From assembly GCF_002211765.1 (NCBI RefSeq), contig NZ_CP022133.1, forward strand, positions 372,001 to 436,000: a DNA stretch of 64,000 nt. Direction: 5' to 3'. The stretch comes from Idiomarina piscisalsi (lineage in GTDB: Bacteria > Pseudomonadota > Gammaproteobacteria > Enterobacterales > Alteromonadaceae). A program made the position numbers and the translations under genes. The notes under the pieces were generated by a model that had not been told where the DNA came from, made no database searches, and saw nothing but the letters and a program-made list of their open reading frames with translations. How positions within the stretch are numbered: position 1 is the stretch's first letter; every line of letters begins with the position of its first letter. Of this stretch, positions 19,595 to 61,604 are shown piece by piece.

Positions 19595-20101
19595 TTATAA
19601 AGAAATAGATGACTGGTAGACTAGCACGTCAAGACCGCTTTCGGTAAGTGCCTTGGCTTGTTCAGCCACTGTTTTTCCATTGGGCAAGACAAGTGACGGT
19701 GCTATTTCAAGAAGAGGATACAAGACAAAGCTGCGCTCATACAGGCCCGGGTGAGGCACCGTCAGATCTGAGTTTTGGTGTGTCTCGTCATCGAATAATA
19801 GCAAGTCGAGATCTAATGTCCGCTCACCCCAGTGACGAACGCGTTTGCGGCCGAATTCATCTTCAATAGCATGCAGTGACCGCAGTAAATCGTAGGCGGG
19901 CAGGTTTGTGCTTAACTGACAGACTGCATTAACGTAGTCTGGCTGGTCTTGCGGTCCCATGGGCTTACTGCCGTACAGCGACGAATAGCTGACAAGTCGC
20001 CAGCTATTGGACCGGTTTAATCGTGACAGCGCACTGAGTAAGTTATTGAGCGGGTCGTTTAAATTGCTCCCCAGTGCGACATAGGCATTATGCTGAGCCA
20101 T
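19595..20101 (-). CDS. folK: 2-amino-4-hydroxy-6-hydroxymethyldihydropteridine pyrophosphokinase
   Basis: A 168-residue folate-pathway kinase transferring pyrophosphate from ATP to the pterin. It shows AYVALGSNLNDPLNNL at the start, the pterin-binding NAVCQLST region, and WGERTLDLDLLLFDD with the metal-binding Asp pair, followed by VPHPGLYERSFVL. It overlaps the end of pcnB by 14 bases. The 20.8-kb repeat begins inside this gene at 19822, so only its 5' 280 bases recur at 40612-40891. Confidence 0.97.
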   Translation of the reverse strand: MAQHNAYVALGSNLNDPLNNLLSALSRLNRSNSWRLVSYSSLYGSKPMGPQDQPDYVNAVCQLSTNLPAYDLLRSLHAIEDEFGRKRVRHWGERTLDLDLLLFDDETHQNSDLTVPHPGLYERSFVLYPLLEIAPSLVLPNGKTVAEQAKALTESGLDVLVYQSSISL

Positions 20102-21497
20102 TATCTGAGTTGCTTTGTGGCTTCTTTTTACGCGGCCCGCGACGACGGCGTCTGGGTTTACCGGTAGGTGCGCCGGACTTACCAGTTTTCAGCTTCGCTG
20201 GATTATTCTGAGCTTCTGTCCAGAACTGTGCCAGTTCAGCCAGCTTTTTCTCTTCTGGCTGGGCGTGTGCTCGCAGCAGCATAAAGTCATAAGCGGCACG
20301 GAAACGTTTGTGCTCAAGCGCCTTCATGGCACGACCGCCTTTTGTGACCTGCAAACGTCGTTGCAGCTGCCAAATTTCACGAGCGGGTAAACTAAACCGT
20401 TTAGGAATCGAAACGCGCTGAGACTGCCTGTGTACCACATCGGCAGCGGCAATGTTTATTGCGTCCATCGGTGGCAGGCCGCCTTCATTTTCCAGCTGCT
20501 CTTTGCGAGCCAGAAGCGGCCACCATAACAGGACCGCAATGAGGTATGCCGGTGTTACGCGTTTGTCTTCAGCAATGCGTTTGTCGGTGTCTTTAAAAGC
20601 TTTTAGCAGCATTTGATAGGCGGGTGACTGGGCGTCACTTAAATGCCCTTTAAGCATTGGGAATAGCTGTTGGAAGAGCCCCAGCTCCATCATCAGTGAA
20701 AAGTTTGCCGTAGCTTTACCCGACATAAACATTTTCAAAAATTCATCAAACAGACGCGCAGGTGGAATGTTCGCGAGCAACGGAGCCAACTCGTTAATCG
20801 GTTCGCGGACGGCGTTATCCATTTGCATGTTGAGTTTGGTCGCAAAACGCACTGCGCGCAGCATTCTAACCGGATCTTCTCGGTAGCGTGTCTCCGCATC
20901 ACCAATTAACCGCAAAATACCCTTATTGATGTCGTCGACGCCGTTAGCAAAGTCATAAATGGCAAAGTCGGCAATGTTGTAATACAGCGCATTCGCAGTG
21001 AAATCCCGGCGCTCGGCATCTTCTTCTATGGTGCCATAGACGTTATCGCGTACTAACTGGCCATGCTCATCACTGTGTGCGTGCTGGTTTTTCTTCGCCG
21101 TTTTTGCGTCAGGTTCGTCCGCGTGGTGTCCGCGGAACGTAGCGACTTCAATAATCTCTTTGCCAAACACGACATGCGCCAGGCGAAAGCGACGACCAAT
21201 AAGACGGCAGTTTCGAAACAGCGACTTCACCTGCTCGGGCGTTGCGTTGGTGGTTACATCAAAGTCTTTCGGTTGAATACCGAGTAAAATGTCACGCACA
21301 CAGCCGCCCACTAAATAAGCGTCAAAGCCGCTGTTATGTAAGCGGTACAAGACTTTAAGTGCGTTTTTGCTAATGTCGTTCCGGGATACAGGGTGTTTAT
21401 CTCTTGGGATAACTTTCAACGCCGGTAAACGACTGTTGCTGGGGGTATCCTTGCTGGAGAAAGCGCGTTTTGCTAACTCTTTTATTCGCTTAATAAT
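20088..21497 (-). CDS. pcnB: Poly(A) polymerase I, probable AUU start
   Basis: A nucleotidyltransferase adding poly(A) tails that promote RNA decay. [12 protein letters not shown] and the metal-binding DFDV (Asp78, Asp80) mark the active site; the tail is very basic (GKPRRRRRGPRKKK). No ATG, GTG or TTG with a ribosome site opens the frame; the in-frame ATG at 21656 lies inside gluQ. GGGAGAG (21504-21510) stands six bases before ATT at 21497 (ATTATTAAG), giving 469 residues. E. coli pcnB is known to start at AUU, which limits its expression through IF3 discrimination, so I infer the same here. The stop overlaps folK by 14 bases. This copy is intact; the second is frameshifted. Confidence 0.92.
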   Translation of the reverse strand: MIKRIKELAKRAFSSKDTPSNSRLPALKVIPRDKHPVSRNDISKNALKVLYRLHNSGFDAYLVGGCVRDILLGIQPKDFDVTTNATPEQVKSLFRNCRLIGRRFRLAHVVFGKEIIEVATFRGHHADEPDAKTAKKNQHAHSDEHGQLVRDNVYGTIEEDAERRDFTANALYYNIADFAIYDFANGVDDINKGILRLIGDAETRYREDPVRMLRAVRFATKLNMQMDNAVREPINELAPLLANIPPARLFDEFLKMFMSGKATANFSLMMELGLFQQLFPMLKGHLSDAQSPAYQMLLKAFKDTDKRIAEDKRVTPAYLIAVLLWWPLLARKEQLENEGGLPPMDAINIAAADVVHRQSQRVSIPKRFSLPAREIWQLQRRLQVTKGGRAMKALEHKRFRAAYDFMLLRAHAQPEEKKLAELAQFWTEAQNNPAKLKTGKSGAPTGKPRRRRRGPRKKKPQSNSDNGSA

Positions 21498-21558
21498 GGT
21501 GGTCTCTCCCTTACCATTGTCATTGTTGTTTATTGTCAATTGGTCGCATATTGTACCG

Positions 21559-22410
21559 TCAAGCGGCCGTAATGTGCCACTTTTTGCGCCACTTTTGCAC
21601 CGCAAAGGCCAGTATCTCATCGATTTTTCGCGTTTCACTGAGTTCATGGGCATCAATACCCAGATAATTCAGCGCTATTAACAGGTTATCTGGTGCGTTT
21701 TGGCTGTTGATTGCTGGTGCGTGATTTTGTTTACTGAGCTTGCGGCCATCGTCGGATGTGACTAACGGTAAATGCATCATTCTGGGCTGGGCGCTAGTAA
21801 TATGCTGCCATAAAGTAAGCTGCCAAAAGCTTGGTACAACCAGGTCGCTGCCGCGCACAATATCGGTAATGTCTTGCTCAATATCATCAACCACCACCGC
21901 TAGCTGGTATGCGTATAAGCTATCACGACGTTTGACGACAAAATCTTCTGCGCAGGTATTTGTATCGCCGTGCTGTACCCCAAGTGCGCGGTCATTGAAT
22001 TGATTAACAGGGGCGCTGTTAATGTAACGAAGTGCGTAGGGGGTAGGACGTGGCTGGCGAGTGCGGCAATAGCCTTCATAAATACCACCGCGCTCACGAA
22101 TGGCCTTACGTGAACAGTCGCACTGGTAGATGAAACCTGCAGAGGTTAATGAGTCGATGTAGCTTTGATAAACCTTGTCACGTTCGCTTTGGAAAATAAC
22201 GTCGCCGTCCCAGGTGAGTCCGTGGGCTTCAAGTTGACCGAGGATAATATCGGCCGCACCGGGAACGGCGCGAGGTTTGTCGACATCCTCAATACGAACA
22301 AGCCACTGGCCGCGGTGTGCATGAGCGTCCAGGTAGCTACCAACAGCAGCTACTAACGAGCCCAAATGTAAAGGCCCCGACGGAGTCGGGGCAAATCGGC
22401 CTCGGTACAT
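21559..22410 (-). CDS. gluQ: Glutamyl-Q tRNA(Asp) synthetase
   Basis: A 283-residue truncated GluRS-like enzyme that glutamylates queuosine in the tRNA(Asp) anticodon rather than charging tRNA. It has the class I signature [13 protein letters not shown] (about 8-20), RIEDVD, the zinc-ligand region CDCSRK...YC, and KLSKQ. It lacks an anticodon-binding domain, as the family does. It lies 6 bases after dksA, an arrangement conserved in many gammaproteobacteria. This is the intact copy; the one at 42339-43191 has an extra A. Confidence 0.96.
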   Translation of the reverse strand: MYRGRFAPTPSGPLHLGSLVAAVGSYLDAHAHRGQWLVRIEDVDKPRAVPGAADIILGQLEAHGLTWDGDVIFQSERDKVYQSYIDSLTSAGFIYQCDCSRKAIRERGGIYEGYCRTRQPRPTPYALRYINSAPVNQFNDRALGVQHGDTNTCAEDFVVKRRDSLYAYQLAVVVDDIEQDITDIVRGSDLVVPSFWQLTLWQHITSAQPRMMHLPLVTSDDGRKLSKQNHAPAINSQNAPDNLLIALNYLGIDAHELSETRKIDEILAFAVQKWRKKWHITAA

Positions 22411-22416
22411 GAGCCC

Positions 22417-22869
22417 TTAGGCTCCTGTCATCTGCTTCTCTTTCATTTCTGCGAGAGTTTTGCAGTCAACGCAGAGATCCGCTGTTGGACGTGCTTCTAA
22501 GCGGCGAATACCAATTTCTATGCCGCATGAATCGCAAAAACCGAAGTCGTCGTCTTCAATTTTTTGCAGCGTTTTCTCTATTTTCTTAATCAGTTTACGC
22601 TCGCGGTCACGAGTGCGCAGTTCAATGCTGAACTCTTCTTCCTGTGCCGCGCGATCAACAGGATCAGGAAAGTTCGCCGCTTCATCTTTCATATGATGCA
22701 CGGTGCGGTCAACTTCCTGACGTAACTGACGACGCCACTCTTCCAGAATACGACGAAAATGCGCACGCTGCGCGTCATTCATGTACTCTTCGCCCTGCTT
22801 CTCCTGATAAGGCTCCAGGCCGGCTAGTGCCAGAATGCCATGGGTTTTCTTTTCCTTGCCTTGAGGCAT
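22417..22869 (-). CDS. dksA: RNA polymerase-binding transcription factor DksA
   Basis: A 150-residue regulator that enters the RNA polymerase secondary channel and, with ppGpp, adjusts rRNA and amino-acid promoters. The coiled coil (about 35-105) has the tip residues Asp69 and Asp72 (DPVDRA), and the zinc finger has Cys112, Cys115, Cys133 and Cys136. AGGAGATC lies just before the start. The leader upstream (22870-22920) has short CTCTAAAA-type repeats and a small CTCTA/TAGAG hairpin. It is followed by gluQ. Confidence 0.97.
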
Positions 22870-23010
22870 TTTGGATCTCCTAATTCTCTAAAACTAGAGT
22901 GCTCTAAAAGCGTGCGTTTAAAAAAGGACGCTACATATACCAGAAAGGGATCAGGTTGGCAACGCTATTCCAACGACTCTTTTGCTTAAAATTTAACTCA
23001 AAACCTCGCG

Positions 23011-23715
23011 CTATAAGCGCACCGGAACTGGTCTCTCCAGTCGAATTTCTTTTTCATTTATGGCGCATTTCACCGCGTAAAATTCGACGCCGTGTTCCGC
23101 CGCTTTAATACAGAGTTCTGCGTATTTTGGATCGATATGTTTCGCTGGGCTGACCGATTCAATACCGGTGTGCATCACCATATAGAGCTGGATGGCTCGA
23201 TGCCCTTGTTCGACAACGTGCATGAGCTCATTCAAATGCTTATGGGCACGCTGACTGACGGCATCCGGGAAATAGCCGCTTTCTTTCTCGGCAAGTGTCA
23301 CACTTTTTACCTCGACAAAGCACTCTTTGCCATTAGGGTCTACGCCCCACCAGTCGATGCGGCTATTTTCCTGCCCGTACTTCTTTTCAGACCTCAGTTC
23401 GGACCAGCCGCTAAGTTCTGGTATAAGTTCGCTGTTTAACAGCTCTCCGGCGAGTGTATTCGCACAGCCGGTATTCACCGCAATAAACTCGCCTTCCTTG
23501 GTTCGTGATAACTCCCAGGTATGTGAATACTTACGTTTTTTGTTGTCAGAAAGACTGCAATATGCGTCGAACCCAGGCTCAGCACAGCCCGTCATTGCGC
23601 CTGTGTTCGGGCAATGAACCGTTGTTATTTGTCCATCGCCAAAATCAATATCGGCCAGAAAGCGTTTATAGCGTTTTTCTAAAACTCCCCGGCGAAGGGG
23701 CTTGTTAAATTGCAT
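23011..23715 (-). CDS. sfsA: Sugar fermentation stimulation protein SfsA
   Basis: A 234-residue SfsA family protein, the same length as in E. coli. Motifs visible are ERYKRF-like LEKRYKRFLADI, HCPNTGAMTG, VNTGCANTLAGELL, RIDWWGV and FVEVKSVTL, a nuclease-like core. The biochemical role is unsettled; it was named for maltose effects and binds DNA in E. coli. An ATG four codons upstream is open, but GAGG lies seven bases before the ATG at 23715, which I choose. It is divergent from pepB over 55 bases. Confidence 0.94.
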   Translation of the reverse strand: MQFNKPLRRGVLEKRYKRFLADIDFGDGQITTVHCPNTGAMTGCAEPGFDAYCSLSDNKKRKYSHTWELSRTKEGEFIAVNTGCANTLAGELLNSELIPELSGWSELRSEKKYGQENSRIDWWGVDPNGKECFVEVKSVTLAEKESGYFPDAVSQRAHKHLNELMHVVEQGHRAIQLYMVMHTGIESVSPAKHIDPKYAELCIKAAEHGVEFYAVKCAINEKEIRLERPVPVRL

Positions 23716-23770
23716 CAGAGACCTCATAACTCTAAAGTAACTGAAAGCAAATTATCGAGAGAGGTTGAGA

Positions 23771-25069
23771 ATGTCCAGCGCACTAGCGGTTTACTTAACG
23801 AATGAAGCACCAGCAGCTCATTGGAACCCGAAGTCAAATGTCGTCTTTGACGGCGATGCCGCCAAAATAGTTTTGGTGGACGACGAGTCTGAGAATTTGC
23901 GGCGTATTCAAAAAGCCGGGCGAACCCTCGACAACAACGGCGTCATAAAAGTAGCAGTATCTGGTGACGGCTGGGATATGGAGCGTCAATGGGCGCTTTA
24001 TCAGGGCTTTACGTCAACATTGTCGAAAAATGATGTGGTATGGCACGCAGACGACAAGGAAGCGGCGAAGCACCTCGATGCGATGCGTGATGCAACACGA
24101 TTTAGCCGTGAGCTCACCAACTTACCGGCCGAAGATATCTATCCTGAAAGTCTGGCAGAACGTGTCATTGAGCACTTCAAAGGGTTAGCACCCGATGCAA
24201 TCAGCGCAGAGTTTATTAAAGGTGAAGCGCTGAAAGACGCAGGCTGGATGGGAATTTATACTGTGGGTCGTGCGAGCCAGCATGCACCGGGCATGTTGGT
24301 ACTTGACTACAACCCAACCGGCGATAAAAACGCGCTTGTTGATACAGCGCTTATCGGTAAAGGTATTACCTATGACAGCGGTGGCTACAGTATTAAGCCA
24401 AGTGAAGGCATGCTGTCAATGAAGTGTGACATGGGCGGTGCAGCAACGGTCACTGGTGCATTGTCGTTAGCGATTCGTCGTGGTTTGAATAAACGCGTGA
24501 AGCTGATTCTCTGCTGCGCAGAAAATATGATTGATGGCCGAGCGTACAAGTTAGGCGACATTATCCGTTATAAGAACGGTTTGACCGTAGAAGTGGTGAA
24601 TACTGACGCTGAAGGTCGCTTGGTGTTAGCTGACGGGTTGCAGGCCGCTGGCGAATTCGGCGCGAAAAATATTATTGATGCCGCTACCTTAACGGGTGCC
24701 GCTCAAATGGCCGTCGGTAATGAATACAATGCGCTGTTCAGTGTTGATAACAGTGCCGCCGAGCGCGCATTGAAAAACGCCGATAAAGAACACGAATTGC
24801 TGTGGCGTTTGCCGTTAGCCCCTTGGCACTCAGAGAATTGCCCGTCAGCCTTTGCCGATACAGCGAACAGTCGTCCGCAAAAAGGTGGCGGTGCTGGCGG
24901 CGCCAGTAACGCGGCCGGTTTCCTGTTACGGTTTGCGCCTGAGCAAGGTAAAGGCTGGCTTCACTTTGATCTGGCCGGTGCTTACCAGAAGTCAGCGACA
25001 GGTATGTGGGCAACAGGTGCGACAGCATTAGGCGTAAGAACCATTGCCGCCACCGTTCAAGGTGACTGA
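23771..25069 (+). CDS. pepB: Aminopeptidase B (M17 leucyl aminopeptidase family)
   Basis: A 432-residue two-zinc/manganese aminopeptidase acting on intracellular peptides. The catalytic core includes GKGITYDSGGYSIKP, SMKCDMGGAATV and the M17 signature NTDAEGRLVLADGL, followed by DAATLTGAA. GAGAGG six bases upstream fixes the ATG at 23771. Its length and N-terminus resemble PepB more than PepA. Its stop codon is followed at once by hrpB, with which it is probably cotranscribed. Confidence 0.94.
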   Translation: MSSALAVYLTNEAPAAHWNPKSNVVFDGDAAKIVLVDDESENLRRIQKAGRTLDNNGVIKVAVSGDGWDMERQWALYQGFTSTLSKNDVVWHADDKEAAKHLDAMRDATRFSRELTNLPAEDIYPESLAERVIEHFKGLAPDAISAEFIKGEALKDAGWMGIYTVGRASQHAPGMLVLDYNPTGDKNALVDTALIGKGITYDSGGYSIKPSEGMLSMKCDMGGAATVTGALSLAIRRGLNKRVKLILCCAENMIDGRAYKLGDIIRYKNGLTVEVVNTDAEGRLVLADGLQAAGEFGAKNIIDAATLTGAAQMAVGNEYNALFSVDNSAAERALKNADKEHELLWRLPLAPWHSENCPSAFADTANSRPQKGGGAGGASNAAGFLLRFAPEQGKGWLHFDLAGAYQKSATGMWATGATALGVRTIAATVQGD

Positions 25070-25075
25070 TTGGGT

Positions 25076-27547
25076 ATGACCTTGCCCGTTGAAAACGTGC
25101 TGCCGGCATTAGCGCAATGCTTCCCGGCAGCACGTGTGGTTTTAGAGGCACCGCCTGGTGCCGGTAAGTCCACCTATTTACCCCTTTATTTGCTTCGAGA
25201 ACAGTTGGGCACGAGCGGTATTACCGTTATGTTGCAGCCGCGGCGTGTTGCTGCTGTCAATGTGGCCAGTTACCTGGCCAGGCAGTTAGATGAGCCCGTT
25301 GGTGAAACCGTTGGCTATATTGTTCGCGGTGAAACGAAACGCACGAAGAACACCAAGCTTCTTGTCGTCACTGAAGGCGTATTAGTACGCTGGTTACAGG
25401 AAGACCCTGAGCTTAGTGATATTTCGACACTGATATTCGATGAGTTTCATGAGCGCAATTTACACAGTGATTTAAGCCTGGCGTTAGTGATTGACGCATT
25501 GCCGTTGCGTGAGGACTTAAATCTATTGATCATGTCTGCAACATTGCCGGCAAAAGACATTTCCGAATGGTTGTCTGCATATTGCGACGGCGTCACGACA
25601 CTGAGTAGCGAAGGACGCAGCTTTCCAATAGATATTCAATACCGAGCCCCGAAACAGCGAAGTGAGTGGTTACTGCATTTGCCCAGTGTCATTGTCGAGG
25701 CTTTAGGAAATGCCGACAAAGGCGTGCTGGTGTTTCTGCCGGGTATCTACGAAATTGAACGGGTGCAACACGCATTGAGCTCTCTGGTGGCAACTGATGT
25801 CGGTGTTTATACCCTGCATAGCCGGCTGTCACTTAAAGCGCAGCAGCACGCGTTAAAAGCCAGTGATGGTAGGCGAATTATCCTTGCGACAAACATAGCT
25901 GAAACCAGTTTAACCATAGAAGGCATTGATGTGGTAGTGGACAGCGGACGTGAACGTCGAGCGAACTTTTTGCCGGGTTATGGCATGAACCAGCTGACCA
26001 CGCACTTTGTATCCCGAGCGTCAGCAACGCAGCGAGCCGGTCGGGCCGGGCGCTTACAACCCGGAACCTGCTATCGGGTTTGGTCTAAAGCAGATGAGCA
26101 TGGTCAACCTGAGTATGCGAGGGCTGACATAGAGACACAGGACGTAACGTCGGTGGTATTGGAAGCCCTGAAGTGGGGGAGCTCAGTGAGTGAACTTGCC
26201 TGGTTTACTCCACCTAATCCGGTGCACTGTCGTGTTGCTGAACAATTTTTATCGTTAACCGGACTTTTGCACGACAAGCAACTGACGGGTAAGGCGATGT
26301 CATTGGATACGGGGGCTGATGTACGTCTTGCCCTCATCTGTGCCGCCGCAAACGAGACTGGTGATAAGGAGGCCAATAATAATGTGAAGGCGGCTTGTGC
26401 CCGTGCTCTGGCGACGTTAGAAGAGCCGTCACCACACATTAAAACGGTCAACATTCTTGAAAGTACTAAGCAACATTATCAGCAGCGCCAGTCATTGAGC
26501 CGATGGCGAAGACGCTGGCAGTACTGGCTGCAACGTTTGCGGGTGACGGAAAATACGGAAGCGAATGAGAAAGGCGCAGAGCCAATGCTAATAGCGGGCT
26601 TTCCAGACAGGTTGGCAAAGTACAGTGAGACGAAAAGAAGCTTTCAGCTGGTGACCGGTGGGCGTCTGGCTCCCGTTGCCGAGTTATTGAGCCAGCCTCA
26701 ATGGGCGATTATTTTCGAGGCCACCTTTCAAGAAGGGAATAGCACAGGAAAAGTGCGACGTTATGTTGAAGTATCCGATATTTCTGACGCGATAGACGCT
26801 GCTGGGTTACCAGTATCTGAAACTCACTCAGCTGACTGGCTCGGTACTCAACAGACTCTGACTCGAGTTAGGCGCCAGGTCATCGGTGCATTGACACTCT
26901 CTGAAGAAAAGCTAGACGGAAGCGTGAGTCATGAAGAGCGTTGTCAGGCATTTGCGGAGTATCTCAATAAAAAAGGCCTTGAGACACTACATTGGTCCCG
27001 AAAGGCAAATCAACTGTTGGCACGCATGCGGTTGTTACAGTCAGTGACCGGCGAGTTAAGTGACTACCCACTATCGCCTGAGGGCTTGCTGTCTAATTTG
27101 AAGGTCTGGGCTTACCCTTACTGGCATTCGTTAAAATCATTGTCGCAGTTGGAAGCCTGGGAACCTTGTGAGGCGCTAACCTATTGGCTTAACTATGACG
27201 AGAAAGAACGACTGGACAACGCCTGCCCTGAGCACTGGCAAACACCGACACAACGTAAAATCTTTATAAATTATCTGGACGGAACCCCGCGAGTTGAGGT
27301 GAAATTGCAGGAAATGTTTGGCGTAAAAGACTCGCCACGAATTATTGATGGCCAGCAGGTGGTAGCGGTGGATTTACTCTCTCCGGCAGGCAGACTGCTG
27401 CAACGAACCAATGACTTGAACGGCTTTTGGGGTAATGCGTATCAGGAGGTCCGCAAAGAAATGCGAGGGCGTTATCCGAAACACCCGTGGCCGGAAGATC
27501 CAATAAACGCCGAGGCAACTTATAAAACCAAAAGGCAAATGCAGTGA
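25076..27547 (+). CDS. hrpB: ATP-dependent RNA helicase HrpB
   Basis: An 823-residue DEAH-like helicase. Motifs: APPGAGKST (I), QPRRVAAVN (Ia), TEGVLVRWL, DEFHER (II), SATLPA (III), VFLPGIYEIERV (IV), ATNIAETSLTIEG (V) and SATQRAGRAGR (VI), then an HrpB-type C-terminal domain. A TTG at 25070 is in frame, but AAGGTGA upstream is better spaced for the ATG at 25076. The physiological RNA substrate is unknown. It overlaps mrcB by 4 bases; hrpB-mrcB adjacency is also seen in E. coli. Confidence 0.95.
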   Translation: MTLPVENVLPALAQCFPAARVVLEAPPGAGKSTYLPLYLLREQLGTSGITVMLQPRRVAAVNVASYLARQLDEPVGETVGYIVRGETKRTKNTKLLVVTEGVLVRWLQEDPELSDISTLIFDEFHERNLHSDLSLALVIDALPLREDLNLLIMSATLPAKDISEWLSAYCDGVTTLSSEGRSFPIDIQYRAPKQRSEWLLHLPSVIVEALGNADKGVLVFLPGIYEIERVQHALSSLVATDVGVYTLHSRLSLKAQQHALKASDGRRIILATNIAETSLTIEGIDVVVDSGRERRANFLPGYGMNQLTTHFVSRASATQRAGRAGRLQPGTCYRVWSKADEHGQPEYARADIETQDVTSVVLEALKWGSSVSELAWFTPPNPVHCRVAEQFLSLTGLLHDKQLTGKAMSLDTGADVRLALICAAANETGDKEANNNVKAACARALATLEEPSPHIKTVNILESTKQHYQQRQSLSRWRRRWQYWLQRLRVTENTEANEKGAEPMLIAGFPDRLAKYSETKRSFQLVTGGRLAPVAELLSQPQWAIIFEATFQEGNSTGKVRRYVEVSDISDAIDAAGLPVSETHSADWLGTQQTLTRVRRQVIGALTLSEEKLDGSVSHEERCQAFAEYLNKKGLETLHWSRKANQLLARMRLLQSVTGELSDYPLSPEGLLSNLKVWAYPYWHSLKSLSQLEAWEPCEALTYWLNYDEKERLDNACPEHWQTPTQRKIFINYLDGTPRVEVKLQEMFGVKDSPRIIDGQQVVAVDLLSPAGRLLQRTNDLNGFWGNAYQEVRKEMRGRYPKHPWPEDPINAEATYKTKRQMQ

Positions 27548-29805
27548 TAAAACGTCAATGGTTAAGCTACTTATTTTGGACCGGCGTCAAGGTTGGCGTC
27601 GCGGTCGCTGCGGTCGTTGCTGTGTATGCGATATACCTTGACGCTAGCCTGTCTAAGCACTTTAAAACGGAGCGCTATCAAGCTCCGGCGCTTGTCTATG
27701 CTGGTGAGCTGCGTTTATACCCTGGTTACCCAATACCGCAGTCGACGTTGATAAAAACACTCGAGCGTATTGGCTATAACCGCAGTAACGATACCGAGCA
27801 ATCTGGCTATTATTCGGTGGGTAATAGCAGTGTTATGGTTCATCGTCGGCCTTTTGATTTCTCAGACGGCCCACAAATGTCTAAGCGGGTTCAGATTAAT
27901 TTTTTAAATAATCGTGTGGCGTCTATTACTTCCTGGCCCAGTGGGAGAGAGCTGGAGAGCTTTCGTTTGGAGCCTGAGCTCATCGGTCGAATTAGTACGT
28001 TAAGCAAAGAAGACCGATTATTGGTCGGTTTGGAAGTGGTACCTAATCTACTTATTGAAACGTTGCTTCAGGTGGAAGATCGCAACTTCTATCATCATCA
28101 AGGCGTTTCTCCTTGGGCAATTTTACGTGCGTTGGTCGCCAATCTAAAAGCCGGGCGCACCGTTCAGGGCGGCTCAACCTTAACGCAGCAGTTGGTCAAA
28201 AACCTATACCTCACTCGTGAACAAACGTTATGGCGGAAATTCCATGAGGCCATGATGTCGCTGGTTATTGATTACCGCTTTGATAAAAACACCATATTAG
28301 AAACCTATTTAAATGAAGTGTATTTCGGTCAGGACGGTCGCAATGCGATTCATGGCATTGGGCTGGCCAGTCAGTTCTATTTTGGTAAGCAAGTTCAGGA
28401 GCTGTCGGTCTACGAAGTGGCTTTGCTAATTGGCATGATAAAAGGACCGTCATATTACGACCCAAGACGTTTTCCTGAGCGTGCTCAGGAGCGTCGGGAC
28501 ACCGTGTTAAAGGTGATGTTTGATCAGGACCTTATCGCTAAATCCACTTATGTCGCTGCGGTACAACGACAATTGGATGTTAGAGAAAGCCGACGTTTAG
28601 TGGAGCATCCGTACCCTCATTACATGGATATTATTAAGCGTGAAATGAAAACGCTGGCGCTGCCAGATGACTGGCAGGATACGGGCTTAAAGATATATAC
28701 CCATATGGATGTGAACGCTCAGGAAGCGGTACAAAAGTCGTTGGCGGGCAAGCTTAAAGAGGATGACAGTGCGCTGGAAGGGGCGATGGTGGTTGCTAAT
28801 TACCGTCAAGGGACGGTAACCGCGTTAGCGGGCGGACGTTTAAGTCAAACCGTTGGGTATAACCGCGCAATAATGGCACTGAGGCCCATTGGTTCTCTTA
28901 TCAAACCAGTGATATACGCGACTGCAATGCAGGAATCCGGTGTCGGTTTGCATACCCCGGTGGTTGATGAAGCTATTACACTTGAGGACAAGCAAAGTAA
29001 ACAGTGGCAGCCGCAAAACTACGACAAGGAATTTAAAGGTAGCTTGTTGCTTTATGAAGCGTTGGTTAAGTCACGCAATATTCCGGCGGTGAGAGTGGGC
29101 GTGGAAGTCGGTGTGGATACCGTCGTTGACTACATGAGACGACTAGGTGTTGTCACGCCTTTGGAAGTATATCCATCGTTGACATTGGGCTCTGCGTCGC
29201 TGACGCCGTATGCAGTCACACGAATGTACAGTGCACTGATGAACGATGGCCGATTTCAGCCGCTCTCAGCGATTTCGTCTATTACTACGCATCAGGGCGA
29301 TGTTTTATATCGGGCCTCTGAGAAAAATGGGGAGCAGGTGTTTGACACCAAAGTCGCTTATCTGACGAAGTTTGGTTTGCACGGTGTCGTTGCCGAGGGC
29401 ACAGCGAGCGCCTTACAACGAGTGCTTGCTGGACAGAAAGTTGGCGGAAAAACCGGTACGACGAATGATTACCGGGACAGTTGGTTTGTCGCTGTTGACG
29501 GTGAACAGGTCGTGACTGCCTGGCTGGGACGGGATGATAACCAACCGACAGGCCTGACAGGTAGCAGCGGCGCCTTAAGAGTCGTTGCTGATTACTACGA
29601 ACGTAAACCGCCGTTAAGTATGGCGTTGAATGTACCCGAGCCGCTGAAGATGCAGCGATTTCATGAACGGACAGGGCAGCGCATACCGAATGATTGTGGA
29701 AATGGCGAATTGTTGCCTGCAGAAGAAATACGCTTGCCGGATAACATAACCTGTGAGGGCAATATCGAGGAGAAGAGTTGGTGGGACCGCCTGTTTGGAG
29801 GCTAG
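27544..29805 (+). CDS. mrcB: Penicillin-binding protein 1B (bifunctional transglycosylase/transpeptidase)
   Basis: A 753-residue class A PBP. A short cytoplasmic tail and one membrane segment (about 8-28) are followed by a UB2H-like region (about 55-135, the LpoB-docking domain in E. coli), the GT51 domain with Glu178 in VEDRNFYHHQG and GGSTLTQQLVKN, and the transpeptidase domain with Ser451-x-x-Lys454 (GSLIKP), SRN and KTGTT. It starts at GTG (27544), overlapping the hrpB stop by 4 bases. It polymerises and crosslinks peptidoglycan in the periplasm. Confidence 0.96.
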   Translation: MIKRQWLSYLFWTGVKVGVAVAAVVAVYAIYLDASLSKHFKTERYQAPALVYAGELRLYPGYPIPQSTLIKTLERIGYNRSNDTEQSGYYSVGNSSVMVHRRPFDFSDGPQMSKRVQINFLNNRVASITSWPSGRELESFRLEPELIGRISTLSKEDRLLVGLEVVPNLLIETLLQVEDRNFYHHQGVSPWAILRALVANLKAGRTVQGGSTLTQQLVKNLYLTREQTLWRKFHEAMMSLVIDYRFDKNTILETYLNEVYFGQDGRNAIHGIGLASQFYFGKQVQELSVYEVALLIGMIKGPSYYDPRRFPERAQERRDTVLKVMFDQDLIAKSTYVAAVQRQLDVRESRRLVEHPYPHYMDIIKREMKTLALPDDWQDTGLKIYTHMDVNAQEAVQKSLAGKLKEDDSALEGAMVVANYRQGTVTALAGGRLSQTVGYNRAIMALRPIGSLIKPVIYATAMQESGVGLHTPVVDEAITLEDKQSKQWQPQNYDKEFKGSLLLYEALVKSRNIPAVRVGVEVGVDTVVDYMRRLGVVTPLEVYPSLTLGSASLTPYAVTRMYSALMNDGRFQPLSAISSITTHQGDVLYRASEKNGEQVFDTKVAYLTKFGLHGVVAEGTASALQRVLAGQKVGGKTGTTNDYRDSWFVAVDGEQVVTAWLGRDDNQPTGLTGSSGALRVVADYYERKPPLSMALNVPEPLKMQRFHERTGQRIPNDCGNGELLPAEEIRLPDNITCEGNIEEKSWWDRLFGG

Positions 29806-29811
29806 TCCCAC
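29781..29811 (+). terminator. Hairpin across the mrcB stop codon, possible terminator
   Basis: GTGGGAC (29781-29787) pairs with GTCCCAC (29805-29811), with an inner GCCT/AGGC stem. It spans the last codons and stop of mrcB in the 34-base gap before the convergent hemL. There is no clear T run, so it may be a weak terminator or an mRNA 3'-end stabiliser. Confidence 0.4.
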
Positions 29812-29839
29812 CGGGTTATTCGTTATGAGTGCTGTAGGT

Positions 29840-31123
29840 TTACTTCAGTTGGGTAAAGGCTTTTTCCGCCGCTTGTAAGGTTTTCTCAATGTCGTCTTCA
29901 GTGTGTGCCGCTGACATGAAACCGCCTTCAAACGCGGAAGGTGCAAGGTATACCCCTTCATTCAGCATAGCGTGGTAGAAGGCTTTGAAATGCTCCATAT
30001 TGCATTGTGTTGCCTGCGCATACGACGTCACTTCCGGCTCTTCAGTAAAGAAGAAACCAAACATAGAGCCGGCACGATTCGTTGTCATTGGCACGCCCGC
30101 TCTGTTGGCGCGCTCTTGTAGACCATCCACTAACGCATCGACGCGCCGGTACAACTGGTCATAAAGGCCCGGAGTCGACAGCTGCTGCAATGCAGCTAAG
30201 CCTGCGGACATTGCGACAGGGTTCCCTGATAGTGTACCGGCCTGATAGACAGGCCCTACCGGCGCGATGTAGTCCATGACTTCTTTTTTACCGCCAAAGG
30301 CACCCACCGGCATACCACCACCAATCACTTTTCCTAAGGTGGTTAAGTCGGGAGTAATGCCATAGCGCTCCTGAGCGCCTCCCGGAGCAACACGGAACCC
30401 AGTCATGACTTCGTCAAAAATCAGAACCGAACCGTACTCGTCGCAAACGTCACGCAGGCCTTCTAAAAAGCCGGGAACAGGCGGGATACAGTTCATATTG
30501 CCGGCAACTGGCTCAACGATAATACAAGCAATATCGTCGCCGAACTCTTTAAATGCGTCTTTAACTGAATCGATGTCGTTGTAGTTCACGGTCAGCGTAT
30601 GTTTCGCCAGGTCTTCCGGAATACCCGGCGAGTTAGGAACTCCTAAGGTCAACGCGCCCGAGCCTGCTTTGACCAGCAGTGAGTCAGCGTGACCGTGGTA
30701 GTTACCTTCAAACTTCAGAATTTTGTCACGGCCGGTGTAGCCACGCGCTAGGCGGATAGCCGTCATGGTGGCTTCGGTGCCGGAGTTCACCATACGGACT
30801 TTTTCAATCGACGGTACGATTTTGCGAATGGTTTCCGCCATAGTGATTTCAATTTCCGTTGGCGTACCAAAGCTTAAACCACGTTTTGCGGCCGCTAAGG
30901 TTGCTTCTAAAACGGCAGGGTGGTTGTGCCCGAGAATCATTGGCCCCCATGAGCCAACGTAGTCAATGTAACGTTTACCGTCGGCATCAATCATATAAGC
31001 GCCTTCTGCGCTTTCAAAAAATATCGGTGTGCCACCAACGCCGCTAAAGGCTCGAACCGGCGAGTTAACGCCGCCGGGAATGCTAACTTGTGCTTGCTTG
31101 AATAAATCTTCTGAACGACTCAT
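29840..31123 (-). CDS. hemL: Glutamate-1-semialdehyde 2,1-aminomutase
   Basis: A 427-residue PLP enzyme converting glutamate-1-semialdehyde to 5-aminolevulinate in the C5 haem pathway. Landmarks are [49 protein letters not shown] and the PLP-lysine site [26 protein letters not shown] precedes the ATG. It lies 15 bases downstream of pyrB and is probably cotranscribed; hemJ, another haem gene, is nearby on the same strand. Confidence 0.97.
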
Positions 31124-31138
31124 GCCGCAGTTACCTCT

Positions 31139-32155
31139 TTATAGTTGGCTTTTTTCGCTGTACCAGATGACATCACATTCGTGTTTGTCGACCTGGTCAA
31201 CTACGCCTAATGTCAGTGCAAATAGCGCCATACGAATGAGCACTCCGTTGTCCGCCTGTCTGAAAATAGCCAGGTTTGGGTTCTGGTTGAGATCATTGTC
31301 GAGCTCGTTCGCTTCTGCTCGTGAATCTCTTGGCAACGGGTGCATAATGACGGTATTGGGCTTGTAATGCTTAGTGTAAATGTCCTGATTTAAACGGAAT
31401 TTACCGCGATATTGATCAGCGTCTTCGGGACTGGCGAAACGCTCTTGCTGGATGCGAGTCTGGTACACAATGTCGGCATCAACAATGCCGTCGACTTTTT
31501 CCGTGATAGTCACCTGATGACCGGCGCTATCCAGGGTGGCTAATACCGACTCAGGCATCGACAGTTCACGCGGAGAAATCAGCGTGAACTTAATGTTTTT
31601 ATACATGGACAGCAGTGTCGATAATGAGTGAACCGTACGTCCGTACTTTAAGTCACCAATCATGCAGATGTGCATGTTATCAATGCTCTGTTGGTGATAA
31701 GCCAGTTCTTTTTCGATGGTGTACAGGTCGAGAAGTGCCTGAGTCGGATGCTCATTAGCGCCGTCACCACCATTAATGACCGGTACCCGGCTACCACTGG
31801 CAAACTCTTTCACCGAACCCGATTTCGGGTGGCGCATAGCGATAACGTCGCTATAGCTGCTGAGCACGCGGGCGGTGTCGTAGAGAGACTCGCCTTTGGC
31901 AATCGCTGAGCTTTCCATGCCGGTCGTTTCACGAACTTCGCCGCCGAGCAAATTAAAAGCGGTGCCGAAGCTTACCCGGGTACGTGTTGAAGGCTCGAAG
32001 AATAAGTTGCCGAGAATAGCACCGTCCAATACTCGGGTTCGTTTTTTACGACGAGCATAGGGTTGCATTTTATCAGCAACGGAAAAGATATAATCGATAC
32101 TGTCTCGGTCGAACTGGTTGACTGAGAGAATGTTGGAACCGGTGAAATTCATCAA
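31139..32155 (-). CDS. pyrB: Aspartate carbamoyltransferase catalytic chain
   Basis: A 338-residue transcarbamoylase for the second step of pyrimidine synthesis. The carbamoyl phosphate site FFEPSTRTRVSFGTA, GDGANEHPTQALLDLYT, MIGDLKYGRTVHSL and MHPLPRDSRA are present. It is longer than the roughly 310-residue E. coli chain. No pyrI regulatory-subunit gene lies beside it, so it may act without the classical regulatory partner or pyrI may be elsewhere. I see no pyrBI-like leader peptide or attenuator in the 67 bases upstream. Confidence 0.96.
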   Translation of the reverse strand: MMNFTGSNILSVNQFDRDSIDYIFSVADKMQPYARRKKRTRVLDGAILGNLFFEPSTRTRVSFGTAFNLLGGEVRETTGMESSAIAKGESLYDTARVLSSYSDVIAMRHPKSGSVKEFASGSRVPVINGGDGANEHPTQALLDLYTIEKELAYHQQSIDNMHICMIGDLKYGRTVHSLSTLLSMYKNIKFTLISPRELSMPESVLATLDSAGHQVTITEKVDGIVDADIVYQTRIQQERFASPEDADQYRGKFRLNQDIYTKHYKPNTVIMHPLPRDSRAEANELDNDLNQNPNLAIFRQADNGVLIRMALFALTLGVVDQVDKHECDVIWYSEKSQL

Positions 32156-32222
32156 TAGGTGCGCCTCTGCCGCCGAATGTCACTGGACGCACACTATAGC
32201 AAAGTCAGCACCGTTTTAGAAT

Positions 32223-32654
32223 CTAATACGGCTTCACCACGGCTAAAATAATAATCGCGAAAAGCGCCAGAACCGGCAGTTCATTAAAGACTCGATAAAA
32301 GCGATGACTTTTCGTATTTTTACCGTTCTTAAAGTCCCTCAATAATTTGAAGCAGTAGCCGTGGTACGCGTATAAAAGCGTGACTAAAACCAATTTGGTA
32401 TGCATCCAGCCACTGGCGGCAAACCAAGCAGAACCGTAGGCAAAAATGAGCACCAGTCCAAAAACCAGAGTTAAAATTGCAAATGGTGTGACAAAGAACA
32501 GTAAGCGTCTTTCCATCACGCAAAACTGTTCGTGTACCGCGGGTTTAGCATTCATGGCGTGATACACAAACAGCCGGGGTAAGTAAAAAATACCCGCAAA
32601 CCAGGCCACCATAAAGGCAATATGCAATGCTTTAACCCATAAAATCCACGTCAT
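32223..32654 (-). CDS. hemJ: Protoporphyrinogen oxidase HemJ
   Basis: A 143-residue inner membrane protein of the HemJ (UPF0093/TIGR00701) family, which oxidises protoporphyrinogen IX. Four membrane segments are predicted; conserved residues include the early His in KALHIAFMVAWFAGIFYLPRLFVYH and the KLVLV segment. It overlaps clcA by 4 bases (32651-32654), so the two are translationally coupled. pyrB and hemL follow after 67 bases. Confidence 0.92.
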   Translation of the reverse strand: MTWILWVKALHIAFMVAWFAGIFYLPRLFVYHAMNAKPAVHEQFCVMERRLLFFVTPFAILTLVFGLVLIFAYGSAWFAASGWMHTKLVLVTLLYAYHGYCFKLLRDFKNGKNTKSHRFYRVFNELPVLALFAIIILAVVKPY

Positions 32655-34338: not shown

Positions 34339-34432
34339 TTAATGTTGTTCCTTACACTAAACCAAGGCTCAAGGCTTGCATATTTATCAATAACATATCA
34401 GCATAAGCGGCTAATGGAAATGAGCGAGTATT

Positions 34433-35179: not shown

Positions 35180-35234
35180 CCAAAATAGTCAGGTAAGAGA
35201 AAATGCCCACAGAGTTCAACGAGGGTGAGACACT

Positions 35235-36986: not shown

Positions 36987-36989
36987 AGT

Positions 36990-45850: not shown

Positions 45851-45856
45851 TTGGGT

Positions 45857-50586: not shown

Positions 50587-50592
50587 TCCCAC
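50562..50592 (+). terminator. Hairpin across the mrcB stop codon, copy 2
   Basis: The same GTGGGAC/GTCCCAC stem as at 29781-29811, in the gap between convergent mrcB and hemL. It has no strong T run. Confidence 0.4.
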
Positions 50593-50620
50593 CGGGTTAT
50601 TCGTTATGAGTGCTGTAGGT

Positions 50621-51904
50621 TTACTTCAGTTGGGTAAAGGCTTTTTCCGCCGCTTGTAAGGTTTTCTCAATGTCGTCTTCAGTGTGTGCCGCTGACATGA
50701 AACCGCCTTCAAACGCGGAAGGTGCAAGGTATACCCCTTCATTCAGCATAGCGTGGTAGAAGGCTTTGAAATGCTCCATATTGCATTGTGTTGCCTGCGC
50801 ATACGACGTCACTTCCGGCTCTTCAGTAAAGAAGAAACCAAACATAGAGCCGGCACGATTCGTTGTCATTGGCACGCCCGCTCTGTTGGCGCGCTCTTGT
50901 AGACCATCCACTAACGCATCGACGCGCCGGTACAACTGGTCATAAAGGCCCGGAGTCGACAGCTGCTGCAATGCAGCTAAGCCTGCGGACATTGCGACAG
51001 GGTTCCCTGATAGTGTACCGGCCTGATAGACAGGCCCTACCGGCGCGATGTAGTCCATGACTTCTTTTTTACCGCCAAAGGCACCCACCGGCATACCACC
51101 ACCAATCACTTTTCCTAAGGTGGTTAAGTCGGGAGTAATGCCATAGCGCTCCTGAGCGCCTCCCGGAGCAACACGGAACCCAGTCATGACTTCGTCAAAA
51201 ATCAGAACCGAACCGTACTCGTCGCAAACGTCACGCAGGCCTTCTAAAAAGCCGGGAACAGGCGGGATACAGTTCATATTGCCGGCAACTGGCTCAACGA
51301 TAATACAAGCAATATCGTCGCCGAACTCTTTAAATGCGTCTTTAACTGAATCGATGTCGTTGTAGTTCACGGTCAGCGTATGTTTCGCCAGGTCTTCCGG
51401 AATACCCGGCGAGTTAGGAACTCCTAAGGTCAACGCGCCCGAGCCTGCTTTGACCAGCAGTGAGTCAGCGTGACCGTGGTAGTTACCTTCAAACTTCAGA
51501 ATTTTGTCACGGCCGGTGTAGCCACGCGCTAGGCGGATAGCCGTCATGGTGGCTTCGGTGCCGGAGTTCACCATACGGACTTTTTCAATCGACGGTACGA
51601 TTTTGCGAATGGTTTCCGCCATAGTGATTTCAATTTCCGTTGGCGTACCAAAGCTTAAACCACGTTTTGCGGCCGCTAAGGTTGCTTCTAAAACGGCAGG
51701 GTGGTTGTGCCCGAGAATCATTGGCCCCCATGAGCCAACGTAGTCAATGTAACGTTTACCGTCGGCATCAATCATATAAGCGCCTTCTGCGCTTTCAAAA
51801 AATATCGGTGTGCCACCAACGCCGCTAAAGGCTCGAACCGGCGAGTTAACGCCGCCGGGAATGCTAACTTGTGCTTGCTTGAATAAATCTTCTGAACGAC
51901 TCAT
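50621..51904 (-). CDS. hemL: Glutamate-1-semialdehyde aminomutase, copy 2
   Basis: This encodes the same 427-residue PLP enzyme as 29840-31123, with the [10 protein letters not shown] lysine site intact. It lies 15 bases after pyrB copy 2. Confidence 0.95.
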
Positions 51905-51919
51905 GCCGCAGTTACCTCT

Positions 51920-52936
51920 TTATAGTTGGCTTTTTTCGCTGTACCAGATGACATCACATTCGTGTTTGTCGACCTGGTCAACTACGCCTAATGTCAGTGC
52001 AAATAGCGCCATACGAATGAGCACTCCGTTGTCCGCCTGTCTGAAAATAGCCAGGTTTGGGTTCTGGTTGAGATCATTGTCGAGCTCGTTCGCTTCTGCT
52101 CGTGAATCTCTTGGCAACGGGTGCATAATGACGGTATTGGGCTTGTAATGCTTAGTGTAAATGTCCTGATTTAAACGGAATTTACCGCGATATTGATCAG
52201 CGTCTTCGGGACTGGCGAAACGCTCTTGCTGGATGCGAGTCTGGTACACAATGTCGGCATCAACAATGCCGTCGACTTTTTCCGTGATAGTCACCTGATG
52301 ACCGGCGCTATCCAGGGTGGCTAATACCGACTCAGGCATCGACAGTTCACGCGGAGAAATCAGCGTGAACTTAATGTTTTTATACATGGACAGCAGTGTC
52401 GATAATGAGTGAACCGTACGTCCGTACTTTAAGTCACCAATCATGCAGATGTGCATGTTATCAATGCTCTGTTGGTGATAAGCCAGTTCTTTTTCGATGG
52501 TGTACAGGTCGAGAAGTGCCTGAGTCGGATGCTCATTAGCGCCGTCACCACCATTAATGACCGGTACCCGGCTACCACTGGCAAACTCTTTCACCGAACC
52601 CGATTTCGGGTGGCGCATAGCGATAACGTCGCTATAGCTGCTGAGCACGCGGGCGGTGTCGTAGAGAGACTCGCCTTTGGCAATCGCTGAGCTTTCCATG
52701 CCGGTCGTTTCACGAACTTCGCCGCCGAGCAAATTAAAAGCGGTGCCGAAGCTTACCCGGGTACGTGTTGAAGGCTCGAAGAATAAGTTGCCGAGAATAG
52801 CACCGTCCAATACTCGGGTTCGTTTTTTACGACGAGCATAGGGTTGCATTTTATCAGCAACGGAAAAGATATAATCGATACTGTCTCGGTCGAACTGGTT
52901 GACTGAGAGAATGTTGGAACCGGTGAAATTCATCAA
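51920..52936 (-). CDS. pyrB: Aspartate carbamoyltransferase, copy 2
   Basis: This encodes the same 338-residue protein as 31139-32155, with FFEPSTRTRVSF and HPLPRDSRA present. Again there is no pyrI neighbour. Confidence 0.95.
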   Translation of the reverse strand: MMNFTGSNILSVNQFDRDSIDYIFSVADKMQPYARRKKRTRVLDGAILGNLFFEPSTRTRVSFGTAFNLLGGEVRETTGMESSAIAKGESLYDTARVLSSYSDVIAMRHPKSGSVKEFASGSRVPVINGGDGANEHPTQALLDLYTIEKELAYHQQSIDNMHICMIGDLKYGRTVHSLSTLLSMYKNIKFTLISPRELSMPESVLATLDSAGHQVTITEKVDGIVDADIVYQTRIQQERFASPEDADQYRGKFRLNQDIYTKHYKPNTVIMHPLPRDSRAEANELDNDLNQNPNLAIFRQADNGVLIRMALFALTLGVVDQVDKHECDVIWYSEKSQL

Positions 52937-53003
52937 TAGGTGCGCCTCTGCCGCCGAATGTCACTGGACGCACACTATAGCAAAGTCAGCACCGTTTTAG
53001 AAT

Positions 53004-53435
53004 CTAATACGGCTTCACCACGGCTAAAATAATAATCGCGAAAAGCGCCAGAACCGGCAGTTCATTAAAGACTCGATAAAAGCGATGACTTTTCGTATTT
53101 TTACCGTTCTTAAAGTCCCTCAATAATTTGAAGCAGTAGCCGTGGTACGCGTATAAAAGCGTGACTAAAACCAATTTGGTATGCATCCAGCCACTGGCGG
53201 CAAACCAAGCAGAACCGTAGGCAAAAATGAGCACCAGTCCAAAAACCAGAGTTAAAATTGCAAATGGTGTGACAAAGAACAGTAAGCGTCTTTCCATCAC
53301 GCAAAACTGTTCGTGTACCGCGGGTTTAGCATTCATGGCGTGATACACAAACAGCCGGGGTAAGTAAAAAATACCCGCAAACCAGGCCACCATAAAGGCA
53401 ATATGCAATGCTTTAACCCATAAAATCCACGTCAT
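53004..53435 (-). CDS. hemJ: Protoporphyrinogen oxidase HemJ, copy 2
   Basis: This encodes the same 143-residue four-helix membrane protein as 32223-32654, overlapping the stop of clcA by 4 bases. Here the upstream clcA is intact, so this copy shows the true operon. Confidence 0.92.
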   Translation of the reverse strand: MTWILWVKALHIAFMVAWFAGIFYLPRLFVYHAMNAKPAVHEQFCVMERRLLFFVTPFAILTLVFGLVLIFAYGSAWFAASGWMHTKLVLVTLLYAYHGYCFKLLRDFKNGKNTKSHRFYRVFNELPVLALFAIIILAVVKPY

Positions 53436-55120
53436 GCTAACTCTCTTTGTAATGCTTTACGGACGGTTTCCCACGTCACTATGCCACACGGGTGTTCACC
53501 GTTTGATTCATAAATATACACCGCACCACGGCGCTGTTGTCCAATTTCATCATACACTTCAGCCAGTGTTGAGGTGATACGCAAACCTTTAATAGGTGTA
53601 TAGCTCAAACTGGGGCTGTCACCAGCGGTAATATCATAGGATACAAGACGGTACAGAGGCTGGTTGTCTTCATCCACGGACATGACGATAACCGTTTTTG
53701 CCTGGGCGGATTCCAGGGAGTCGACCAACTCATTCTGGGTGGGTTCGAGCAAGAGTTTAAAGTCCGTCTCCATGACGTTTTCGACGCCGGTTTTCTGCAG
53801 CGCTACGTGCACAGGAGCCAGTTGGTAGGGCAGATCTTGTAACTCCAACTGAGCGATAAAAATTGATTTTGATTTAAACAGCTGACTGGATATCAGATAA
53901 GCCGGGACAATCACCATCATTGCCGGAATAATAATTTCGACACTGCGAGATAACTCAACAATCGCCAGAAGTGCCGCCATAGGTGCGTGAATGCAAGCTG
54001 CCAAAATACCGGCCATGCCAAGTAGAATGAAACTGTCAAAAGACAAGGCTTGTTGAATACCTAATACATCCACCGCGCCCACGAAAACTGCCGCGATGAT
54101 GGCACCGATACCGAACACCGCACCAATTAAGCCGCCCGGAATGCCCATGCCAAGTGCAATAGCTGCCGCAAATAGCTTGGCAAGCAATAACGTGGTGAGC
54201 AAGGACATTTCGCCCTGGTGATTAAGCACCTGCTCAATAGCGGTTAGTCCGGGACCTAAACTGGTTGGAATAATAACTGCCAGAGAAGCGGTAATAATGC
54301 CTGCGAACAGAAGCCGGGTTAGTAAGGACATGTCTTTGACTGTATCCATAACATCCAGCATGAGCTTTTTAAAAATCACACCGACGACGCCCAGCACTAC
54401 GCCAAGAATGACGACCCAGGGCAATTGAGTGGTGGGAATATCCTGTGCCGACAACATGGCAAGTTCAGAAGCGACGCCAAAGATTTCTTCTGTTATTAAT
54501 GAGCCCGCTACCGCTGACAGCATGACCGGGATGAACACGTGAACTTTGTATTCGCGCAAAACCACTTCCATGACCAGCACCATGGCGGCGAGAGGTGTAT
54601 TAAATGAGGCTGCAATAGCGGCCGCAATACCGCAGGCGGCTAGTGTTCGTAAGGCGTTCTTAGGGGCGTCAACATGAAAGCCCAGCCAAGTGGAGGCTGC
54701 GGCGCCTAAATGAACCGCGGGACCTTCGCGACCAACACTGTAGCCCGCAATAAGAGCAATAATACCGCCAAAAAACTGGTTAACGGTGCTGCGCCACGGG
54801 AGCATCCCGTAATGCTGCTTCATGCGATGGATGACATAGGGAATGCCCATACGCACGTAGCGCGAACCCGATAAACGAAAAATACCGTAAATAAGTAACG
54901 CGGCGGCAATGGGTATGATAAAACGGAGCGTTGTTGGCAAGGGTTCCTGCCAGTAAGTGTCGTTACCAATGAGATGAGCGCCGTACTCAATGGCAAAACG
55001 GAAACCGGCAATCATTAATGCGGCGAGCACGCCCCCGGCTAACCCCAACAAACAGATAGCAATTGTTGTTGTCGGCATGGCCAACTGCTTGCGTAATTGC
55101 TGTCTTAATAAAGGCGCCAT
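53432..55120 (-). CDS. clcA: ClC-family chloride channel/antiporter with C-terminal CBS region (intact copy)
   Basis: A 562-residue inner membrane protein, the intact form of the gene. About 420 residues form the ClC membrane domain: the GREGPAVHLG motif holds the external gating glutamate, and GMGIPGGLIGAVFGIGA corresponds to the later anion-pathway loop. A cytoplasmic C-terminal region (about 440-560) resembles CBS domains. Proteins of this type move chloride, often in exchange for protons. An Asn-rich or Ser-type GSGIP motif is not evident, so transport stoichiometry is uncertain. It is coupled to hemJ by a 4-base overlap and divergent from the DUF6776 gene. Confidence 0.92.
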   Translation of the reverse strand: MAPLLRQQLRKQLAMPTTTIAICLLGLAGGVLAALMIAGFRFAIEYGAHLIGNDTYWQEPLPTTLRFIIPIAAALLIYGIFRLSGSRYVRMGIPYVIHRMKQHYGMLPWRSTVNQFFGGIIALIAGYSVGREGPAVHLGAAASTWLGFHVDAPKNALRTLAACGIAAAIAASFNTPLAAMVLVMEVVLREYKVHVFIPVMLSAVAGSLITEEIFGVASELAMLSAQDIPTTQLPWVVILGVVLGVVGVIFKKLMLDVMDTVKDMSLLTRLLFAGIITASLAVIIPTSLGPGLTAIEQVLNHQGEMSLLTTLLLAKLFAAAIALGMGIPGGLIGAVFGIGAIIAAVFVGAVDVLGIQQALSFDSFILLGMAGILAACIHAPMAALLAIVELSRSVEIIIPAMMVIVPAYLISSQLFKSKSIFIAQLELQDLPYQLAPVHVALQKTGVENVMETDFKLLLEPTQNELVDSLESAQAKTVIVMSVDEDNQPLYRLVSYDITAGDSPSLSYTPIKGLRITSTLAEVYDEIGQQRRGAVYIYESNGEHPCGIVTWETVRKALQRELA

Positions 55121-60334: not shown

Positions 60335-60363
60335 TTAAAACAGTGTTAAGAATGACGTAAAAT
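60335..60363 (+). promoter_or_regulatory. Candidate tyrS promoter
   Basis: TTAAAA (60335-60340) and TAAAAT (60358-60363) are separated by 17 bases, a sigma-70-like arrangement with an imperfect -35. The implied start site near 60370 would give a leader of about 30 bases before the tyrS ATG. Predicted by eye only. Confidence 0.35.
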
Positions 60364-60398
60364 AATGGGTTTGACCGGGTAATCGATGGAGAGGTTTG

Positions 60399-61604
60399 AT
60401 GAAAACAGAAGTGGCAGAGGCTATTGCTGAAATTACACGTGGTGCCGAGGAGGTACTGCTGGAACAAGAGCTGGCAGAGAAGCTGGAAAGCGGCAAGCCC
60501 CTGGTTGTTAAGGCTGGTTTTGACCCCACTGCTCCTGATTTGCATTTAGGTCACACGGTGCTTATCAATAAATTGCGGGTGTTACAGGACTTTGGCCATA
60601 AAATTGTTTTCCTCATTGGTGACTTTACCGGCATGATTGGTGATCCAACGGGTAAAAATGTGACTCGTAAACCCCTGACACCGGAAGAAGTGGCTGCTAA
60701 CGCTGAAACCTATAAAGAGCAAGTGTTTAAGATTCTGGACTCGGAAAAGACAGAGATTCGCTTTAACTCGGAGTGGATGTCGAAAATGGGGGCTGCCGAT
60801 ATGATTAAGCTGGCTGCCCGTCAAACCGTTGCTCGTATGCTTGAGCGTGATGACTTCAAAAAGCGCTACCAAAACAACCAGTCTATTGCGATTCACGAAT
60901 TTCTGTACCCATTAGTTCAGGGCTGGGATTCTGTGGAACTGAAAGCGGATATCGAACTCGGCGGCACCGATCAGCGTTTCAATCTGCTAATGGGTCGCGA
61001 GCTGCAAAAAGAAGAAGGTTTGCGCCCCCAGACCGTCATTATGACGCCGCTGCTGGAAGGTTTAGATGGCGTGCAGAAAATGTCGAAGTCGCTGAATAAC
61101 TACATTGGTATTACTGAATCCCCCAACGATATGTTTGGCAAGATTATGTCGGTTTCTGATGAGTTGATGTGGCGTTACTTTGATCTTTTAAGTTTCCGTT
61201 CCATTGCTGAAATTGATGGTTTGAAAGCGGATGTAGCAGCGGGTAAAAACCCACGTGATGTCAAAGTACTGTTGGCGAAAGAAATTATTGCGCGCTTCCA
61301 TTCAGACGACGCGGCCGACAAAGCAGAGCAGGACTTTATTCAGCGTTTTCAGAAAAACGCCCTGCCAGATGATATTGAAGAAAAAACGATAGCCGTCGGT
61401 GCTGACGGCATGGGTATCGCTAATGTGCTAAAAGAAGCCGGGTTAGTTCAGTCCACATCGGAAGCATTGCGCATGCTCAAGCAAAATGCGGTGAAGCTGG
61501 ATGGCGAGCGTTTTACCGATAAGAACTACGTGTGCACAGACAAGGACTCGGGTGTTTATCAGGTCGGTAAACGTCGCTTTGCTAAGCTGACGCTGACAGC
61601 CTAA
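60399..61604 (+). CDS. tyrS: Tyrosyl-tRNA synthetase (intact copy)
   Basis: A 401-residue class I synthetase charging tRNA(Tyr). The HLGH signature lies near residue 49 ([13 protein letters not shown]) and KMSKS at 227-231; the C-terminal part (about 340-401, [16 protein letters not shown]) is an S4 RNA-binding domain. A TTG immediately before the ATG extends the frame by one codon, but GGAGAGG upstream suits the ATG at 60399. This is the only complete tyrS here; the copy at 39615-40614 is broken. The right end of the duplicated segment falls inside it near 61403. Confidence 0.96.

Follow-up and report, generated by a model that had tools for sequence, protein, structure and literature searches.

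The Circlator paper (PMC4699355), where it deals with the ends of assembled contigs, describes near-identical overlaps at contig ends, ends of low quality and a start position that is reset by default to dnaA. As that account makes clear, an overlap that is left untrimmed is already a well-known artefact. Here we describe a 20.8-kb direct repeat in the deposited chromosome of Idiomarina piscisalsi whose second copy is almost certainly an assembly overlap of some kind and not a real gene duplication. The window analysed, a stretch of 64,000 nucleotides, covers positions 372,001-436,000 of this genome (G000), the record of which consists of one contig (2,587,498 bases).

The repeat unit, its junction and its genes

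Self-comparison of the window showed that positions 19822-40614 (copy 1) are repeated head-to-tail, in direct orientation, as 40612-61403 (copy 2). A self-BLAST of the window returned one repeat only (19822-40617 versus 40612-61406, 99.9% identical, with 15 gap openings, 19 gap bases and one mismatch), and its sole mismatch, at 40615/61404, falls just outside the unit. The extent proposed in an earlier note on this DNA, from inside folK to inside tyrS, was found to be exact by both comparisons. The core of the unit, 22231-34254, matches 43012-55035 over 12,024 bases without any difference and at an offset of exactly 20,781; outside the core the offset creeps up, reaching 20,790 on the far left and 20,789 on the far right. 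The view that the copies are essentially identical held for the core but not for the edges, where indels fall in several genes.

The two copies meet at 40612-40614 (genome position about C1:412,612), where the bases GCT are common to both outer sites; this point probably marks the ends of the original contig. The self-BLAST of the window showed no other repeat and no long repeats of the IS or rRNA type at the ends of the unit, and a 122-base junction query matched, within the own genome, only the junction and the two outer ends of the unit. Both searches agree with the earlier observation that no IS element, rRNA copy or long homology lies at these ends. Recombination between IS or rRNA copies was considered and rejected, no such repeats having been seen there. 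By our own estimate, three shared bases would occur at a random join in roughly 5% of cases, and real microhomology-mediated duplications often have a few shared bases at the join.

Global alignment of the two copies revealed 15 indel events and no substitutions inside the unit. At the left edge, copy 2 differs from copy 1 by three 1-base, two 2-base and one 3-base losses and one 1-base gain, all of them within 41062-43011; at the right edge, copy 1 differs from copy 2 by eight 1-base losses within 34250-40592. The left and central parts of copy 1 are clean, as are the centre and the right part of copy 2. Seven events fall in the first 2.4 kb of the unit, eight in the last 6.4 kb and none between, and when 15 uniformly distributed events were simulated an equally long clean stretch arose in 76 of 2,000,000 trials. 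The events in copy 2 lie 450-2,399 bases away from the junction, and those in copy 1 lie 22, 56, 324, 719, 901, 1126, 1923 and 6364 bases away, seven of these eight at less than 2 kb.

Thirteen of the 15 indels were frame-changing as judged by a rough longest-open-frame method. In copy 2, pcnB has six events, of which one is in frame, and gluQ has one, whereas both genes are intact in copy 1; copy 1 is hit by five events in tyrS and by single events in a shyC-like gene, at the start of a ClC-type channel gene and in an intergenic position. The shyC-like and ClC-type genes, whose names derive from scores below the curated cut-offs, are intact in copy 2, and the event at the start of the latter leaves products of 532 versus 562 aa in the two copies. 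The intact pcnB of copy 1 occupies 20088-21656 on the minus strand, and its counterpart in copy 2 lies in pieces at about 40878-42436. Gene calls place an intact folK (19595-20101, minus strand) across the left end of copy 1 and an intact tyrS (60396-61604, plus strand) across the right end of copy 2. An open frame across the junction itself (40553-40891, minus strand) runs from the start of folK into the antisense of the tyrS fragment and was taken as a by-product of the join. The identical core carries dksA, sfsA, pepB, hrpB, the PBP1b gene, hemL, an aspartate carbamoyltransferase gene and hemJ, and is adjoined by erpA, an Xaa-Pro dipeptidase gene and anmK, all ordinary housekeeping genes. 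A 248-aa open frame at 34433-35179, between the ClC-type gene and erpA, had no NCBIfam match at E 0.001.

Comparison with related genomes

The named loci closest to the pepB protein were those of I. piscisalsi TPS4-2 (98%) and I. zobellii KMM 231 (97%). When window positions 19000-23000, which reach no more than 3.2 kb into the unit from its left end, were searched against 20 relatives and the own genome, a match was obtained in 20 of the 21. Eight of the 12 same-genus relatives gave one match and the other four gave several collinear or overlapping pieces of one place; the single-contig genomes G003 and G005 gave one match each. The 122-base junction query was matched over its full length in the own genome only (19 genomes searched, own included), so that none of the 18 other genomes of the genus spans the junction. 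In G002, G003 and G012 its halves gave separate matches at a spacing of 20.7-20.8 kb; one half only was matched in five genomes, and there was no match in ten. Comparison with related genomes, which had been put forward earlier as a check, accordingly found the region in single copy: the whole unit in G003, and its left part or its ends in the others.

The closest relative found, G003, is a single contig of 2,616,716 bases which is 94-95% identical and carries the region once, the unit and its flanks being single-copy and continuous. Alignment of the two arms of the window to G003 gave 1,371 and 1,242 substitutions and few indels. All seven left-edge events proved peculiar to copy 2 and all eight right-edge events peculiar to copy 1. 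In all 15 cases, then, the deviating copy is the one that has the affected edge towards the junction. The earlier note had claimed that damage is confined to the two edges meeting at the junction, and the polarity of all 15 events against G003 bears this out. Two further indels relative to G003 are shared by the copies, and another two fall beyond the limits of the unit; a BLAST alignment to the same genome adds a compensating pair of indels in hrpB, present in both copies, and splits those outside the unit into three with slightly different placement. The differences between the copies are not independent of distance from the junction, contrary to what would be expected of a real duplication.

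An earlier polarity test had scored the 15 sites against six references, giving 90 cells, and had used five of the 25 loci from the pepB protein comparison. For the left edge, 39 of 42 cells favoured copy 1, two were ties and one favoured copy 2 (L023 at 22230). For the right edge, 11 of 48 cells favoured copy 2, two were ties, eight favoured copy 1 and 27 had no hit, the named loci being taken to stop short of these sites. The eight contrary cells (L018-L021 at 40558 and 40592) were discounted because their queries cross the junction into folK and the loci seem not to reach tyrS. This discounting depends on the extents of the loci, and the arm alignment to G003 replaced the earlier test.

Four other stretches of G000 served as controls and were compared with G003 (80 kb retrieved, of which alignment pieces of 1 kb or more cover 72,103 bases; one piece of 132 bases with one indel was dropped by this limit). 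Of the 15 control indels, seven were intergenic or at the last bases of a gene, two were in frame, five were compensating and one was frame-changing. The last, a 1-base indel at G000:C1:505687 (L048), lies where two genes meet, the first of which encodes 202 aa in G000 and 168 aa in G003; it reflects either true divergence or a mistake in one of the two records, and with it the background of frame-changing indels is not zero. The contrast is nonetheless one of 13 frame-changing events in less than 9 kb of edges against one in 72 kb of controls. At G000:C1:476069-476133 (L047), five small, mutually compensating indels relative to G003 fall in one 473-aa frame, and this cluster is probably a diverged protein segment. 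Another control indel, of 12 bases and in frame, lies behind an apparent difference in open frames at 502952, where the G003 gene starts right at the border of the retrieved sequence and hence seems truncated; the one at 470062 lies 17 bases before a gene of 244 aa in both genomes.

Record ends and the origin of the second copy

The G000 record begins with dnaA on the minus strand, its base 1 being the final base of the dnaA stop codon. In G003, the match to the terminal 1,500 bases of this record ends at position 1,144,205 and the match to its first 1,500 bases starts at position 1,144,206, and when record end and start were joined 1,490 bases aligned to G003 without a gap. Because the two ends are directly adjacent in G003, the deposited start represents an arbitrary cut in a closed circle. 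A search for overlap between the two ends of a record was negative both for G000 (3 kb from each end) and for G003 (20 kb from each end). The record of G003 does not itself start at dnaA, which is found there at about 1.144 Mb. Given that the start of G000 is an artificial rotation, the assembler's own ends probably lie at the error-flanked junction near 412,612, which would be a natural place for them. G000 is accordingly a single circular molecule whose present ends would not be those left by the assembler.

The repeat had first been read as an unmerged overlap between contigs. An assembly overlap is indeed favoured by the polarity of all 15 events, by the single-copy state of the region in relatives and by the absence of the junction halves from any place in the genome other than the junction and the two outer ends of the unit; the part of that reading which is refined here is that two separate contigs were involved. 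We consider it highly probable that the overlap consists of the two ends of one circular contig that were joined untrimmed. Two ends of the same contig are the simplest source because the record consists of one contig that was cut at dnaA and whose ends fit together without a seam. Assembly of a circular chromosome from long reads would have given one linear contig with both ends covering the same 20.8 kb; these ends would have been joined with the overlap still in place, after which rotation would have brought dnaA to the start of the record. Few reads at each contig end would have left small indels uncorrected in the consensus, which would now face each other across the junction. Copy 1 would then be the end part of the assembler's contig and copy 2 its start part. 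In this scenario the read coverage, the type of sequencing and the succession of processing steps are inferred. Trimming by the core offset (2,587,498 - 20,781) predicts a chromosome of 2,566,717 bases.

Concatenation of two separate overlapping contigs without merging would account equally for the repeat and for the polarity of its errors. This variant, which is counted within our near-certainty of an assembly overlap, appears improbable: the record is one contig, artificially cut at dnaA and with seamless ends, and the two ends of one circular contig would explain it without any second join. A real and very recent 20.8-kb tandem duplication in the sequenced culture, joined at the GCT microhomology, is harder still to credit. 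The head-to-tail arrangement, the three shared bases at the join and the lack of substitutions between the copies all agree with it, and the single-copy state of the region in relatives is neutral for so recent an event; in draft assemblies of relatives a duplication could moreover have been collapsed, but G003 and G005, each a single contig, also give one match. A real junction would, however, be covered as deeply as any other place, yet all 15 differences face the junction, while the core and the outer edges have none. Duplication of a unit with dksA, pepB, hrpB, the PBP1b gene, hemL and erpA, coupled with unlucky consensus errors at the join, therefore seems very unlikely. An old duplication in which the second copies are turning into pseudogenes would account for the broken pcnB, gluQ and tyrS copies, but is to all intents ruled out by the absence of substitutions over 20.8 kb, as against more than 5% of sites in the nearest relative compared, and by damage that is polar and not spread over genes.

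Implications and comparison with known cases

If the second copy is indeed an assembly overlap, the deposited chromosome would be about 20.8 kb too long and would contain a block of falsely duplicated genes, together with falsely broken versions of pcnB, gluQ, tyrS and the shyC-like gene and a folK fragment. Such a record would mislead work on gene duplication, copy number and gene order in Idiomarina. Indel-only differences that are polar to a junction, combined with a record start at dnaA, would be signs by which a buried overlap could be recognised from sequence alone.

The repeat resembles a microhomology-mediated tandem duplication in its direct tandem copies and in the few shared bases at the join, but such an event would not be expected to leave small indels on those edges only that face the junction. 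As an untrimmed overlap would leave them, the two copies form an abutting, direct, head-to-tail and nearly identical repeat, and errors are found at the joined ends where the other copy agrees with relatives. In these respects the locus is like the case in Fig. 1a of the Circlator paper (PMC4699355), which has near-identical ends, low-quality ends and a dnaA start as the usual last step. Unlike the case presented in that figure, the overlap here was left in place, and it is found not at the ends of the record but 412.6 kb into the rotated sequence.
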